From assembly GCA_030168575.1 (NCBI GenBank), contig CP115555.1, positions 1,550,001-1,614,000 on the forward strand: a stretch of DNA of 64,000 nucleotides, given 5' to 3'. The position numbers and the translations under genes are program-made. Every line of letters begins with the position of its first letter. The first letter of the stretch is position 1. Under the pieces are notes generated by a model. It ran no database searches. It was given only the letters and a program-made list of their open reading frames with translations, and had not been told where the DNA came from. This document shows positions 29,895 through 35,840 of the stretch, one piece after another. The DNA comes from Methanomassiliicoccales archaeon LGM-RCC1 (GTDB lineage: Archaea; Thermoplasmatota; Thermoplasmata; Methanomassiliicoccales; Methanomethylophilaceae).

Positions 29895-30503
29895 ATGGTG
29901 ATGATACAGGAAGTTATGTTCGTATACATATTGGGCGGATTCCTTGGAAGTGGAAAGACCACCCTTCTGATGAAACTAGCATCCATGTACACCAAGCGTG
30001 GACTGAAAACCGCTCTCCTGGTCAACGAATCCGGTGAGATCGGTGTGGATGGCGCCACCCTCAAAGCTGAGGGATATGATGCGATCGAACTCCCTGACGG
30101 ATGCATCTGCTGCTCCCTTTCCGGAACGCTGCAGACAGCTATGAAGAACATCGAGGACGACATCGATCCCGACATCATCATCGTCGAACCGACAGGATTG
30201 GCATTGCCCCACAAGGTGAAAGAACTCGTTGAGAGCTCAGGCGTGGATGCCGAGGGAATCTTCATCATAGGCATATCCGATGTCGAGAGATTCCAGATCC
30301 TGATCGATAAGAAGGAAGAGTTCATTAAGAGACAGATGGTCGGAGCCGATTTCGTTCTGATCAACAAGAAGGACCTGGCCAAACCAGGACAGGTCGATGC
30401 CATCGAAGCATGGTTCAAGAAGGAATTCCCTGACAAAAAGGTCATGGTCATCTCTGCCAAGACCGGAGAGAACATGGATTCAGTTTACGAGATGATGAAA
30501 TGA
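29895..30503 (+). CDS. CobW/HypB-type metallochaperone GTPase
   Basis: 202 residues, G3E family P-loop GTPase. Walker A GGFLGSGKTTLL is near residue 14, followed by the CobW-type metal-binding motif CICCSL, G3-like VEPTG and G4 NKKD. It lacks the usual C-terminal CobW domain. Such GTPases hand Co, Zn, Ni or Fe to client proteins. A TATA-like CTTTTATATAG lies near 29858. The stop overlaps the start of the His/Cys-rich protein (ATGA), which suggests they are partners. Confidence 0.85.
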   Translation: MVMIQEVMFVYILGGFLGSGKTTLLMKLASMYTKRGLKTALLVNESGEIGVDGATLKAEGYDAIELPDGCICCSLSGTLQTAMKNIEDDIDPDIIIVEPTGLALPHKVKELVESSGVDAEGIFIIGISDVERFQILIDKKEEFIKRQMVGADFVLINKKDLAKPGQVDAIEAWFKKEFPDKKVMVISAKTGENMDSVYEMMK

Positions 30504-31306
30504 GCGGAGAGAAGACATCATTGGAACAGGCCGGCGGAGTTGCCACCGGACTCACTGGAAGCATAGACTGCTGGAATGCGGATGCGGAGGCCAGACTCGT
30601 TAAGGCCATGACTTCCGTTGGAAATTGGGTCGTCTCCGAGGCAGGTGTGCTCCTTGGACACATCAAGGCCGCGGTCACTCTCGAGGACGGATCCGGCATC
30701 ACATTCAACCTGACCGACATGAGTAACGGTGTTGAGAAGCACGGAACACTCGGGCCTCAGGAGAAGGTCAATTTCACATTCATGTCCGCAGTGCTCGATG
30801 TTGATGAGGAGGAACTCCACCACGTTATGCACCATGCGATCGATGACAGCGGACTCATGTGCGAGATTGATGAGCATCACCACCATCACCATCACCACCA
30901 CGAGCATGAGCACGGAGAATGCTGCTGCCATGAGCATGAGGAAGAGGAATGCGTTGTGAACAACTACTACGGCAAAGTGTACTACCACTGCTGCTGCGAG
31001 CACGGCGAGTGCAAATGCGGACACGAGCACCACCACGAGCATGAGGAAGAGTGCTGTTGCGGTCACGATCACCATGATCATGAGCATCACCACCATGACC
31101 ATCACGAATGTGGATGCGATCATGAGCACGAGCATGAGGAAGAGTGCTGTTGCAGCCATGAGCACCACGGAAAATGCATTGTGAACAACTACTACGAGGA
31201 CGTTCACTACTACTGCTGTTGCTCAGACGAATGCCACTGCCATGAGCATGAGGACCATCATGAGCATGAGTATGGCGAATGCCACTGCCACCATCACGAC
31301 GAGTGA
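30500..31306 (+). CDS. His/Cys-rich metal-binding protein linked to CobW GTPase
   Basis: 268 residues. A conventional N-terminal domain (about 1-115), not recognised, is followed by a tail made mostly of His, Glu, Cys and Asp, including nine consecutive His and repeated CCC and HEHE motifs. Two modules of the pattern CxVNNYY--V-YYCCC sit near residues 152 and 230, so the tail is internally duplicated. It is probably a high-capacity cytoplasmic store or buffer for Ni, Zn or Co that feeds the coupled GTPase. The metal is not predictable from sequence. Confidence 0.8.
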   Translation: MSGEKTSLEQAGGVATGLTGSIDCWNADAEARLVKAMTSVGNWVVSEAGVLLGHIKAAVTLEDGSGITFNLTDMSNGVEKHGTLGPQEKVNFTFMSAVLDVDEEELHHVMHHAIDDSGLMCEIDEHHHHHHHHHEHEHGECCCHEHEEEECVVNNYYGKVYYHCCCEHGECKCGHEHHHEHEEECCCGHDHHDHEHHHHDHHECGCDHEHEHEEECCCSHEHHGKCIVNNYYEDVHYYCCCSDECHCHEHEDHHEHEYGECHCHHHDE

Positions 31307-31318
31307 ATCGTTTTAATC

Positions 31319-31347
31319 CCCTTCCCCAGCTCATGGGGAAGGGTTTT
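31319..31347 (+). terminator. Terminator of the cobW-like pair
   Basis: CCCTTCCCC-N7-GGGGAAGGG followed by TTTTG, 13 bp after the stop. Confidence 0.75.
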
Positions 31348-31399
31348 GTTAACATCTTTTAACATATTGTATTAATTGAATAACATCTCGATAATTGTA

Positions 31400-31435
31400 C
31401 AATAAGGAAATCATTTCCCAATAAGGTTATATTAT
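31400..31435 (+). promoter_or_regulatory. Promoter and palindromic operator of the ABC operon
   Basis: GGAAAT-c-ATTTCC (31406-31418) is a perfect inverted repeat bracketed by two direct copies of CAATAAGG (31400-31407 and 31419-31426). It sits immediately upstream of TATA-like TTATATTAT (31427-31435), a position suiting an activator or BRE-competing repressor. Confidence 0.45.
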
Positions 31436-31482
31436 CATCTGAAATTTTACGACCAGGAAGTGATACCATCAACACAAAACAA

Positions 31483-33756
31483 ATGGTAATCATTGTCGTA
31501 CTGATCGAGATCATTGCGGCAGGAATTATCGTTGTTCTCGACAGGGACTCTGAGAACGTTTCCACAGAGGTGGAAAAGGAAGTGTCTCTGATCGCCAGAG
31601 TGAACACAGATGGTTCTGGAATTTATATCGCATCAAAATACAACGCGGACGATTTCATTAGCGTCTCCAGCAGCGGAAAGGTTACTTACAACACAGATGC
31701 TTGGGGAGGAAAAGTCTTCGGAACACCTGGCGCATCCACCATCCAGCACGTTCAGTTGATGGGAATCGTTCAGAATAACCTAGGGCTCAAATTCGAGAAA
31801 TATAACTCGGGCGGAACACTCGCCTCGGATACCGTATACTACGTGGACACCATACAGAATTATACTCATGCCATCAACAACAAAGGAATTCTGGACGGAG
31901 GAATCCTCTGGGAGCCCCAGTATCACTACATCCTGTCAGATCCGGGATACAAGGGAATGATCACCACCAACGTCCTGTTCCCCGGACACACCTGTTGTCT
32001 TATCGCGGGATACCAGGATTATCTGGACGTACATGGCGATGAGACCATGAGGTTCCTAGCCGCCTACATCAAAGCGGTAAACTACATCAACGACGCCAAA
32101 CAGGATGTTTCCGGTGACAAGTACAACACCCTTGTCTCGATATGCAAGGACAACATCAAGGGACTTACCGATGATGTCATCAAGCAAGCGTTGGAGACTG
32201 TGGTTTACACTTACAGCGATGAAGTCGGCAAATCCAATCTGAATGCTCTTAAGAAGGATATTGCCAACCTTGCAGAGAATCTGACCGAACTGGGAGGAAT
32301 CACAGTGAAGATCGATGAGCTCGGGTTCGGTTCTTACGATGAGTTGGCAGAGGCTTTTGTTGACAACCAATATCTGTCAGGAGCACTGACATACGGTTCC
32401 TATGATAAGCAGGCCACTAGCACCATCAAGGTGGCTGCTATCGACGGTGACATCCATCAGATCGCGGTCCAGGTCGCAAAGTCGTTAGGATACTTCGAGG
32501 ACTACGGACTCGAGGTCGAGATCAGAGGTCTCGCCAACGGAGGATCTGTCGCACAGGATCTGCTGAGCGGACAGTCTGACCTCGGATTCATGGGTGCACC
32601 CCCTATCACCAGTGCAACGATAAACGGAAAGAAGATTATCGTGCATCAGAAGACCGATACCAAAGTGGACAAGGAGCTCTCGCTTCTCTCGAGGGTCAAC
32701 ACCGACGGATCAGGCATCTACATCGCGTCAAAATACAATGCGGATGACTTCATCTCCGTTTCGAGCGATAGTAAGGTCACCTTCCATTCAGAATTCTGGG
32801 GAGGAAAGGTCTTCGGAACACCTGGTGCATCTACAATCCAGCATGTTCAGTTGATGGACCTTGTCCAGAACACCATGAAACTGAAATTCGAGAAATATAA
32901 CTCTGGATCGACACTATCGAGTGATACCGTGTACTATGTCGACACAATCCAGAATTACACTCATGCTATCAACAACAAAGGAATTCTGGACGGAGGAATC
33001 CTCTGGGAGCCCCAGTATCACTACATCCTGTCAGATCCGGGATACAAGGGAATGATCACCACCAACGTCCTGTTCCCCGGACACACCTGTTGTCTTATCG
33101 CGGGATACCAGGATTATCTGGATTCCAACGAGGATGCGACTGTGAGATTCCTGGCTGCTTACATCAAAGCTGTGGACTTCATCAACGACGCCAAACAGGA
33201 TGTTTCCGGTGACAAGTACAACACCCTTGTCTCGATATGCAAGGACAACATCAAGGGACTTACCGATGATGTCATCAAGCAAGCGTTGGAGACTGTGGTT
33301 TACACTTACAGTGATGAGAAAGGTACATCCAACCTCAAATCGCTGAAGTCTGACATCGCCAACCTTGCAGAGAATCTGACTTCACTCGGAAGCATCACCG
33401 TGACCATGAGGGACCTTGGATTCAAATCCTATACGGAATTCGCAGAGGCCTTCGTCGATAATTCATACCTTGACAAGGCTCTTAAGCTCAGCTCTGCCAG
33501 CTACAGCAAGAAGAGCACCATCAAAGTGGCAGCGATCGACGGTGACATCCATCAGATCGCAGTTCAGGTCGCTAAATCCCTCGGATACTTCGAGGACTAC
33601 GGACTCGAGGTCGAGATCAGAGGTCTCGCCAACGGAGGTTCTGTCGCACAGGATCTGCTGAGCGGACAGTCTGACCTCGGATTCATGGGAGCGCCTCCGA
33701 TCACCAGCGCCACCATCAACGGTAAGAAGATAATTGTCGTGGAGAGTGAGAGTTGA
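31483..33756 (+). CDS. Tandem, circularly permuted ABC substrate-binding protein
   Basis: 757 residues, about twice a normal NitT/TauT/SsuA-type binding protein. After an N-terminal membrane helix come two 365-residue copies (DNA period 1095 bp) in which the usual second lobe (SL--RVNTDGSGIYIASKYNADD...) precedes the usual N-terminal part (TIKVAAIDGDIHQIAVQVAK). The order is therefore C1-N1-C2-N2: one canonical protein spans residues about 308-675, flanked by a split second copy. Long tracts are identical at DNA level (for example 31881-32028 and 32976-33123), so the duplication is recent or converted. Ligand unknown. No ribosome site is well spaced for ATG 31483. Confidence 0.8.
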   Translation: MVIIVVLIEIIAAGIIVVLDRDSENVSTEVEKEVSLIARVNTDGSGIYIASKYNADDFISVSSSGKVTYNTDAWGGKVFGTPGASTIQHVQLMGIVQNNLGLKFEKYNSGGTLASDTVYYVDTIQNYTHAINNKGILDGGILWEPQYHYILSDPGYKGMITTNVLFPGHTCCLIAGYQDYLDVHGDETMRFLAAYIKAVNYINDAKQDVSGDKYNTLVSICKDNIKGLTDDVIKQALETVVYTYSDEVGKSNLNALKKDIANLAENLTELGGITVKIDELGFGSYDELAEAFVDNQYLSGALTYGSYDKQATSTIKVAAIDGDIHQIAVQVAKSLGYFEDYGLEVEIRGLANGGSVAQDLLSGQSDLGFMGAPPITSATINGKKIIVHQKTDTKVDKELSLLSRVNTDGSGIYIASKYNADDFISVSSDSKVTFHSEFWGGKVFGTPGASTIQHVQLMDLVQNTMKLKFEKYNSGSTLSSDTVYYVDTIQNYTHAINNKGILDGGILWEPQYHYILSDPGYKGMITTNVLFPGHTCCLIAGYQDYLDSNEDATVRFLAAYIKAVDFINDAKQDVSGDKYNTLVSICKDNIKGLTDDVIKQALETVVYTYSDEKGTSNLKSLKSDIANLAENLTSLGSITVTMRDLGFKSYTEFAEAFVDNSYLDKALKLSSASYSKKSTIKVAAIDGDIHQIAVQVAKSLGYFEDYGLEVEIRGLANGGSVAQDLLSGQSDLGFMGAPPITSATINGKKIIVVESES

Positions 33757-34550
33757 TGTTCAAATACGACGACAACAACAAATACCACAGGTTCGGCAAG
33801 ACAGTGATGATCGTCGCCCTATCTCTAATCATGTTCGTAGAGATATGGTGGATCCTATCCCTGATCTCGAACACGAATGTGTTCCCGACACCTGCAGAGA
33901 CTGCAGGGGCATTCGTTGATTTCATCAACAACGGTTACTCTCATCAGTCTTCGGCCAGCATCATATGGTCCTCACTGAGCCTGTTCCTCCAGGGATTCGG
34001 ACTCGCGCTCTTAGTCGCGATCCCTCTGGGATTGTTCCTGGGTTACTCCAAGAACCTGAACACGTTCGTCACGCCTATGATCGAGGTCCTCAGGCCTATA
34101 GCGCCTATTGCTTGGGCTCCGGTCTTCATCTACGGTATCAACTACAATGTAGGTCCTGTACTGGTGGTCTTCATCGGAATATTCTTCCCTCTGCTGACCA
34201 ACATCATCTTCGGAGTGAAGAAGATCGACCCTACCCTCATCGACGCCGCCAAGACCCTCGGTGCCAATAAGACACAGGTCTTCGTGAAGGTCATGGTCCC
34301 CAGTGCGATCCCTTACCTGATGAACGGTATCAAAGTAGGTCTCGGTGTAGGATGGATGTGTATCGTCGCAGCAGAGATGTACTCTCCGGTCTCCATCGGA
34401 GTAGGTTACTGTCTGCAGAGCATGTGTCAGAACAGCCTATGGCCTAGTGTGTTCGCAGTACTGATTGTCATCGCAATATTGGGAATCTTGACCACCAGTC
34501 TTGCTGAGTACATACAGAAGAGAATCTCAAAGAGGATGGGGATGGAATGA
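33756..34550 (+). CDS. ABC importer permease (SsuC/TauC type)
   Basis: 264 residues with about six membrane helices and the binding-protein-dependent transport signature with EAA loop (DAAKTLGANKTQVFVKVMVPSAIPYLMNGIKVGLGVGW). It is the single permease for the nitrate/sulfonate/taurine-type importer formed with its neighbours and probably works as a homodimer. The ATG overlaps the stop of the binding-protein gene. Confidence 0.9.
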   Translation: MFKYDDNNKYHRFGKTVMIVALSLIMFVEIWWILSLISNTNVFPTPAETAGAFVDFINNGYSHQSSASIIWSSLSLFLQGFGLALLVAIPLGLFLGYSKNLNTFVTPMIEVLRPIAPIAWAPVFIYGINYNVGPVLVVFIGIFFPLLTNIIFGVKKIDPTLIDAAKTLGANKTQVFVKVMVPSAIPYLMNGIKVGLGVGWMCIVAAEMYSPVSIGVGYCLQSMCQNSLWPSVFAVLIVIAILGILTTSLAEYIQKRISKRMGME

Positions 34551-35332
34551 GTCCAGAAATCAAAGAAGGAGACGATTTCATCGTCATAGATGGCATACGC
34601 AAGGTCTACAAGAAGGACGAGACGGAGACCGTCGCAATCGATAGGATAGACCTGACCATCAAGAAGGGAGAGCTTGTATCATTAGTCGGCCCGTCAGGGT
34701 GCGGAAAGACCACGATACTGCGCATGATCGCAGGTCTTCTGGAGCCCTCGGAGGGAACCATAACCATCGCCGGCAAGGAATGCAAAGAACCGGGATCCGA
34801 CAGAGGAATGGTCTTCCAGGACTTCGCTCTCTTCCCGTGGAGAACTGTCAGAAGGAACGTCGAGTTCGGAATGGAGATTGCCGGTGTGCCTAAGGAGGAA
34901 CGCCGCCAAAGGGCAGAGAAGTACATCGAACTGGCAGGTCTCAAAGAATTTGCGGATTCAAGGGTACACGAATTGTCCGGAGGAATGAAACAACGTGTCG
35001 GAATCGCCCGTGCGCTGGTCAATCATCCCGACGTGATCCTGATGGATGAGCCCTTCGGTGCCCTCGATGCACAGACCAGGAACATCATGCAGGCCCAGCT
35101 TGTATCTATCCTCGAGAAGACAGAACAGACAGTTATCTTCATCACGCACTCTGTGGATGAGGCGCTGTTCCTGTCCGACCGCGTGGTGCTGCTGTCCAAG
35201 CGTCCTTCGGTCATAAAAGAGGTCATCGACCTTGATTGGCCAAGGCCTCGCGACCGTTCGGCTCCCGAATTCACTGCGCTGAGGAAGAGGATTCTTGAAG
35301 AGCTCGAGAAAGAGAACGTCATGAACCAATGA
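34547..35332 (+). CDS. ABC importer ATPase (SsuB/TauB type)
   Basis: 261 residues. Walker A GPSGCGKTT near residue 48, Q-loop FQDFALFPW, signature LSGGMKQRVGIARAL, Walker B VILMDEPFGALD and the H-loop ITHSVDEA are all intact. It energises uptake with the overlapping permease (4 bp). The subfamily is that of sulfonate, taurine, nitrate and pyrimidine-precursor importers; the substrate is undetermined. Confidence 0.93.
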   Translation: MSPEIKEGDDFIVIDGIRKVYKKDETETVAIDRIDLTIKKGELVSLVGPSGCGKTTILRMIAGLLEPSEGTITIAGKECKEPGSDRGMVFQDFALFPWRTVRRNVEFGMEIAGVPKEERRQRAEKYIELAGLKEFADSRVHELSGGMKQRVGIARALVNHPDVILMDEPFGALDAQTRNIMQAQLVSILEKTEQTVIFITHSVDEALFLSDRVVLLSKRPSVIKEVIDLDWPRPRDRSAPEFTALRKRILEELEKENVMNQ

Positions 35333-35341
35333 CCAATAATT

Positions 35342-35363
35342 GGAGGGGATTATCTTCCCCTCC
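35342..35363. terminator. Bidirectional terminator, ABC operon/ybaK
   Basis: GGAGGGGA-N6-TCCCCTCC stem-loop in the 40-bp gap between convergent genes. Confidence 0.65.
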
Positions 35364-35372
35364 TCCTTTACC

Positions 35373-35840
35373 TTAATTTCTAGCTATATCGGCAAACTGG
35401 AAGTCCATCATCTTCGGAAGATCGGACACGCTGACCTTCAGCTGACAACCAACCTTCCCGCCGCTGAAGTACATGTAATCCGCATCCTTGGCGGACTCGT
35501 CGACGGTAATCCTGACAGGACGTTTCGTGCATAACGGTGAACATCCGCCATGAACGTATCCCATAAGGGGAAGCAACTGGTCGGACTTCAGCATTGATAC
35601 GGATTTCTCGCCGACAGAGGCTGCTGCCTTCTTGAGGTCCAGCTCGCCAGTGACGGGCACCATGAAACAGTAGTAGCACTTCTCCTTCCCCATGGTCATG
35701 AGGGTCTTGAACACCCTCGCCGGATCCTGTCCGTTCGCCTGGGCGATCTCCAGACCGTTGAGGCCCTGTCCCTCGTAGAAGATGGCTTCGTAAGGGATCT
35801 TCAGCCTGTCGAGGTGCCTCATGGGGTTGGTCTTTTCCAT
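35373..35840 (-). CDS. ybaK: Cys-tRNA(Pro) deacylase YbaK/EbsC
   Basis: 155 residues, single YbaK/ProRS-INS editing domain that hydrolyses misacylated Cys-tRNA(Pro). The conserved KTLMTMG and K-VSMLKSDQLLPLMGYVHGGCSP regions are visible. ATG 35840 is chosen because GAGG lies 8-9 nt before it; the frame continues upstream to a TTG at 35894 without support. It stops with TAA. Confidence 0.9.
   Translation of the reverse strand: MEKTNPMRHLDRLKIPYEAIFYEGQGLNGLEIAQANGQDPARVFKTLMTMGKEKCYYCFMVPVTGELDLKKAAASVGEKSVSMLKSDQLLPLMGYVHGGCSPLCTKRPVRITVDESAKDADYMYFSGGKVGCQLKVSVSDLPKMMDFQFADIARN

Follow-up and report, generated by a model that had tools for sequence, protein, structure and literature searches.

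A tandem, circularly permuted substrate-binding protein in a methanogen ABC importer operon, with relatives in four segment rotations

The gene considered here encodes a tandem permuted substrate-binding protein in Methanomassiliicoccales archaeon LGM-RCC1, a gut and rumen methanogen whose genome is one 1.66-Mb contig. It lies in a window of 64,000 nucleotides (GenBank assembly GCA_030168575.1, contig CP115555.1, positions 1,550,001 to 1,614,000), from whose first letter positions are counted below. The gene is an intact open reading frame (31483-33756, plus strand) of 757 amino acids counted from the first ATG. It is followed by an ATP-binding cassette (ABC) permease (BPD_transp_1; 33753-34550, plus strand) and an ABC ATPase (34547-35332, plus strand), both identified from the open reading frame list, Pfam, and neighbourhood comparison. 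The three genes are adjacent and co-directional, as in an ABC importer operon; the permease has its own reading frame, and the binding domains are not fused to a transmembrane domain. An earlier note on this DNA had called a two-domain receptor for one permease unusual, and the analysis supports that description. By profile score, the gene product is a member of the NMT1/SsuA-like substrate-binding family, scoring above the gathering threshold with both PF13379 (79.8 against 24.7 bits) and PF09084 (63.9 against 20.5 bits).

Four segments were defined in the family: A (GDIHQ...GAPP), B (N[TS][DE]GS...TPGxSTIQH), C (...WEPQ), and D (HTCC...end), with the canonical order A-B-C-D set by Pfam NMT1_2. 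The protein begins with a hydrophobic membrane anchor or signal recognized from its sequence (VIIVVLIEIIAAGIIVVL, 31483-31545) and conserved in L002-L004. Segment hidden Markov models (HMMs) then place B1 at 31576-31794, C1 at 31807-31926, D1 at 31963-32394 with its HTCC motif at 31987-31998, and A1, the canonical N-terminal part of the lobe according also to the Pfam alignment, at 32419-32628. The second unit follows with B2 at 32671-32889, C2 at 32902-33021, D2 with an HTCC motif at 33058-33495, and A2 at 33514-33723, all on the plus strand. The A1-B2 junction (32629-32670, plus strand) spans 14 codons between segment profiles and, from comparison of junction lengths, appears to combine the old C-terminal tail with a new leader. 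Both units retain all conserved motifs (GDIHQ, GAPP, NTDGS, TPGASTIQH, WEPQ, and HTCC).

The segments of the dimer read BCDABCDA. A BCDA unit is not collinear with the NMT1/SsuA-like profile and matches it in two stretches of swapped order: the last part of unit 1 aligns to positions 22-74 of NMT1_2 and the first part to positions 78-242. An artificial cut comprising A1-B2-C2-D2 gives one collinear match, to positions 22-242. A phmmer search of the dimer against the PDB returned no match and a profile search was required; the profile of single-unit relatives matched THI5 chains in swapped order too. The NMT1_2 and THI5 alignments bear out the earlier note's order of C1-N1-C2-N2, in which the canonical second lobe precedes the first. 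Segment HMMs, Pfam, and an AlphaFold2 (AF2) model of a natural single BCDA protein together indicate a rotated order with an intact fold, as in a circular permutation.

The two in-frame units are each about 362 amino acids long, with direct repeats 1095 bp apart (31570-31869 with 32665-32964, and 32419-32642 with 33514-33737). This spacing and the identical stretches of more than 100 bp were reported correctly before. Across 1082 bp the units share 80.7% DNA identity, with nonsynonymous and synonymous divergence of 0.11 (dN) and 0.81 (dS) and a dN/dS of about 0.14. The identity is unevenly distributed: exact runs of 155, 132, 56, and 50 bp are set in sequence that is mostly 57-77% identical. 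The two longest tracts, at 31873-32027 (identical to 32968-33122) and 32085-32216 (identical to 33180-33311), both on the plus strand, are candidate gene conversion tracts. Exact tracts amid diverged repeats are far beyond chance, and the mosaic resembles the outcome of conversion between long-standing repeats rather than of a fresh duplication. A careful tree groups unit 1 and unit 2 of the window protein together as sisters (support of 96 and 100 by two measures) even though four genomes share the dimer, a placement that likewise fits conversion. A single clade of all unit-1 sequences, as expected from simple descent of one duplication without conversion, was rejected by the approximately unbiased test (p-AU 0.013), which makes conversion or repeated duplication likely.

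The earlier note had suggested looking for the same fusion in relatives, and it is present in three other genomes of the genus, G003, G013, and G012, at 72, 68, and 66% identity; two of these are the public records SUSW01000037 and JAFUHJ010000128. All dimer loci have permease and ATPase genes directly 3′, and those downstream of the other dimers are 83-89% like the window's. Within the other three dimers, the units are 64-74% identical in DNA and the longest exact run is 44 bp. The in-frame tandem duplicate is found as (BCDA)2 in four genomes, and an independent (CDAB)2 dimer occurs in L123 (1531-3723), from another family. The first unit of the latter has lost all ligand-site motifs, including His-x-Cys-Cys (HxCC).

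Segment HMMs were run on order-level matches, with 147 genomes searched and a match in 135. The window's family (f1) accounts for every one of the 87 single BCDA proteins, which come from 79 genomes, and 37 CDAB proteins are found in the other five families of the order. The other order-level forms are seven DABC, four ABCD, four (BCDA)2, and one (CDAB)2. Elsewhere in the class and phylum, CDAB is the usual form, with few ABCD. BCDA, DABC, ABCD, and dimer forms are all contained in named genome records. Rotation is the rule in this protein family, which the earlier note missed, and a single family-wide permutation was rejected because four rotations are present. The gene order of binding protein, permease, and ATPase is the same for all four rotations in nearly all loci; the rotations thus occupy one operon slot, and relatives that differ in rotation can be as much as 68% identical. 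In the alignment, BCDA rows fall on unit 1 of the window protein, the canonical ABCD row (L197) on A1-B2-C2-D2, and DABC rows on D1-A1-B2-C2.

Two further loci deserve mention. G103, labelled as the same species, has flanks 98.7% identical over 7 kb on each side of about 31255-35386, but between them another transporter operon, running in the opposite orientation (L255:7191-10432), stands in place of the entire operon of the window; its binding protein is a single BCDA unit with about 44% identity. L148 encodes a CDAB binding protein in a 900-residue frame on the minus strand, with HxCC lost; the in-frame repeats after CDAB, judged by eye, look fibronectin/PKD-like and beta-helix-like.

For the trees, sequences were first brought into the same segment order by rotation, and plasmid homologues, which are distant (27-32% identity), served only as canonical outgroups. 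Rotation changed at least five times within the order, and seven changes are counted when distant relatives and bacterial outgroups are included. Once rooted, the tree puts CDAB at the base of the binding-protein family, with one origin of BCDA, in the window's family, and two or more of DABC. A single origin of DABC, tested together with the nested ABCD row L020, was rejected (p-AU 1.6e-44). ABCD recurs beside DABC (L020, which shares as much as 68% identity with DABC proteins) and near CDAB rows (L026, L119, and L122). L020 rests on one metagenome genome that is 61% complete; DABC protein L095 and ABCD protein L026 are located in single-contig genomes. The trees are quick and their outgroup branches long; the count of changes is accordingly firmer than the placement of the root or the polarity of any one step.

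Junction lengths differ among the rotations. From GxPP to N[TS]xG, CDAB proteins have 18-21 residues and the ABCD proteins outside f1 have 18, as against 24-29 in f1 DABC and ABCD proteins and 30-31 in dimers. Most single BCDA proteins stop 13 residues past GxPP. The extra junction residues in DABC and ABCD are the remainder expected of forms excised from a BCDA dimer. A similar lengthening is seen between B and C, with a distance of 50-56 in CDAB-derived proteins versus 40-47 in the outgroups and L236. This distance is 44 in the CDAB dimer itself, and the B-C scar is weaker than the A-B scar.

Structure prediction was applied to both single and tandem forms. The AF2 model of the single BCDA protein L175 has a predicted local distance difference test score (pLDDT) of 95.8 and a predicted template modelling score (pTM) of 0.92. 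Its closest solved folds are SsuA, NrtA, and THI5-like structures (2x26, 3ksx, 2g29, and 4h6d), which are canonical in order. In the structure search, no solved structure matched the whole model; NrtA and SsuA aligned in part, with a query TM-score of at most 0.48, as expected of a permutant. The dimer model has a pLDDT of 91.2 and a pTM of 0.58. Foldseek aligned whole SsuA/NrtA-type targets to it in canonical order, but with a root-mean-square deviation (rmsd) of 23-27 Å. A whole-target alignment in sequence order needs A1-B2-C2-D2, and so large a deviation implies that A1 lies apart from B2-C2-D2. The dimer model thus suggests that A1 packs on B1C1D1 and A2 on B2C2D2, giving two adjacent permuted domains.

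The gene product is probably a pair of consecutive permuted BCDA domains that would form a membrane-anchored receptor for the adjacent ABC importer, with dimers of this kind as intermediates of repeated permutation by duplication. Specifically, the neighbouring importer would be served by two consecutive, complete binding domains, each a circularly permuted NMT1/SsuA-type domain with its new ends just before the strand leading to the hinge. Each unit would fold alone into a two-lobed clamp, B1C1D1A1 and then B2C2D2A2, with a short linker between them. Either clamp could deliver ligand to one shared permease, much in the manner of the GlnPQ tandem domains, and tethering two clamps would increase how many binding sites are available near a single importer. 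Because both units keep their motifs and are under purifying selection, two working sites of similar specificity are to be expected. The dimer would have arisen when the single BCDA protein, widespread in this archaeal family, was duplicated in frame, gene conversion would keep its two units similar, and loss of segments from both ends of a dimer would yield a new rotation. With somewhat less assurance, the operon slot as a whole may be read as a natural permutation series, in which dimers form repeatedly and are trimmed, and one ortholog has passed from CDAB through BCDA and DABC back to ABCD, with scars recording each step.

Several points weigh against two adjacent permuted domains and against dimers as intermediates. 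The domain pairing is taken from the Foldseek rmsd and not from inspected model coordinates, and single BCDA rows placed on unit 1 make up most of the alignment behind the dimer model, a bias towards local pairing. Compared with its nearest ABCD and DABC relatives, the dimer has just 1-2 additional residues in the A1-B2 junction, and a canonical A1B2C2D2 domain in the middle is sterically possible. The earlier note had proposed this middle domain, with B1-C1-D1 closing with A2 from the ends, and had named the pairing of C1 with N2 as the arrangement for structure prediction to examine. The proposal draws further strength from the collinearity of A1-B2-C2-D2 with NMT1_2 and with the canonical relative L197, and from a linker and junction length, near that of same-family canonical relatives, that would permit it. 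The failed canonical-order superposition of the dimer model fits adjacent permuted domains better, and BCDA units exist free-standing in 79 genomes and model well alone; the middle-and-ends fold is probably wrong and is held to be improbable. Exchange of A segments between chains or between beads, in a domain-swapped or multimeric assembly, is more doubtful still. Near-identical A segments might exchange, and the low pTM leaves the domain arrangement open, but no conserved feature requires a swap and the single-unit relative models as a complete monomer.

The origin of the dimer also admits other explanations. Neither DABC clade descends from the window's dimer clade, and no dimer stands at the base of the DABC clades; the window dimer is thus an example of the intermediate and not a proven ancestor. 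Fission and fusion or gene shuffling could have produced the rotations without tandem dimers, leaving the window dimer an unrelated duplication. The position of the DABC clades outside the dimer clade agrees with this explanation, but two independent dimers of two different rotations and the lengthened junctions of the derived rotations speak for duplication. No split forms appeared among the order-level matches, in which free half-genes had no systematic search, and fission and fusion are considered unlikely overall. The earlier note had also raised a collapse of tandem paralogues during assembly. Exact repeats of up to 155 bp might mislead an assembler, yet the same architecture recurs in three other genomes and the window genome is a single contig. 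The other dimers are not collapses either, given their diverged units and short exact runs, and the probability of a collapse or chimera is negligible.

Precedents exist for binding proteins with permuted chains, for binding domains in tandem, and for the model of permutation through duplication. The OpuAC/ProX pair is an instance of permuted glycine betaine-binding proteins. Glycine betaine- and molybdate-binding proteins share a fold and are related by circular permutation (PMC2395249); that relationship is structural and remote, with low sequence identity, whereas the present rotations share one operon slot and reach 68% identity between relatives. In Treponema pallidum, TpMglB-2 (Tp0684) is a natural permuted ABC binding protein of type Ic, or cluster Bc (PMC4990184). 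Like the window protein, it is circularly permuted and tethered at its N-terminus, its first N-lobe strands having moved to the C-terminus. It differs in having a type I sugar-binding fold, one permutation, and a single domain, as opposed to an NMT1/SsuA-like fold with four rotations and dimers. The window protein falls outside type Ic (type I, cluster B sugar-binding fold), its best solved relatives being SsuA, NrtA, and THI5-like proteins. The tandem binding domains of GlnPQ bind independently of each other (PMC8025302) and also stand in a row with a short linker at one importer. Unlike the domains here, which are permuted and near-identical and have a separate permease, those of GlnPQ keep the canonical order, differ in specificity, and form one polypeptide with the permease.

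Natural circular permutations are usually regarded as old, single, and finished, and the duplicated intermediate is seldom caught. Permutation by duplication with functional intermediates has been described for DNA methyltransferases and saposin/swaposin (PMC3320104). That model shares with the present case an in-frame tandem duplicate as a functional intermediate, followed by a new start and stop. Unlike in those cases, dimers and all four rotations coexist here in close relatives, and one rotation has at least two origins. The dimer resembles a retained step on the path to circular permutation of a protein. This one transporter family combines every rotation, at sequence identities reaching 68%, with two dimers of separate origin and with junctions that preserve the succession of events, and the duplication model can be tested on it directly, both in trees and at the bench. 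No binding-protein family described as having dimers together with all four rotations turned up in a literature search in which subscription journals were mostly missing. The case also serves as a warning that such permuted binding proteins are broken up or put in the wrong order by standard profile searches.

NCBIfam equivalogs all scored below their curated cut-offs: SsuA at 56.8 of 163.5 bits, TauA at 20.8 of 304, and SaoX at 51 of 300. An identity as SaoX/SaoP/SaoA (selenocysteine-assisted organometal) was dropped, being below every cut-off. The HxCC motif, a His-x followed by vicinal cysteines at the start of segment D (31987-31998 and equivalents), is found in 120 of 135 single units and recalls the Cys-Sec site listed for SaoB (PMC13188914). 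Directly upstream of the dimer gene, at 29895-31306, are a CobW-type GTPase and a His/Cys-rich protein with runs of H, CCC, and HEHEH, possibly a metal chaperone pair. HxCC, the CobW GTPase, and the His/Cys-rich neighbour hint at a metal or thiol ligand.

The 5′ end of the dimer gene had been questioned for its poorly spaced start codon, with justification: the first in-frame ATG lies 18 nt downstream of the Shine-Dalgarno-like AGGAAGTGAT (31455-31464, plus strand), which is too far, and it is absent from the dimer gene L003. Single-unit relatives have ATG at the family's usual start site (ATG GAC AAG AAA), where the window gene reads ATC (31468-31470, plus strand) and the three other dimer genes read ATT. 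GGAAGTG is conserved in all four dimer genes, at a normal distance before ATC or ATT. On the simplest reading of this comparison, which the earlier note did not reach, a conserved AUU/AUC initiation codon is probably used in all four dimer genes.
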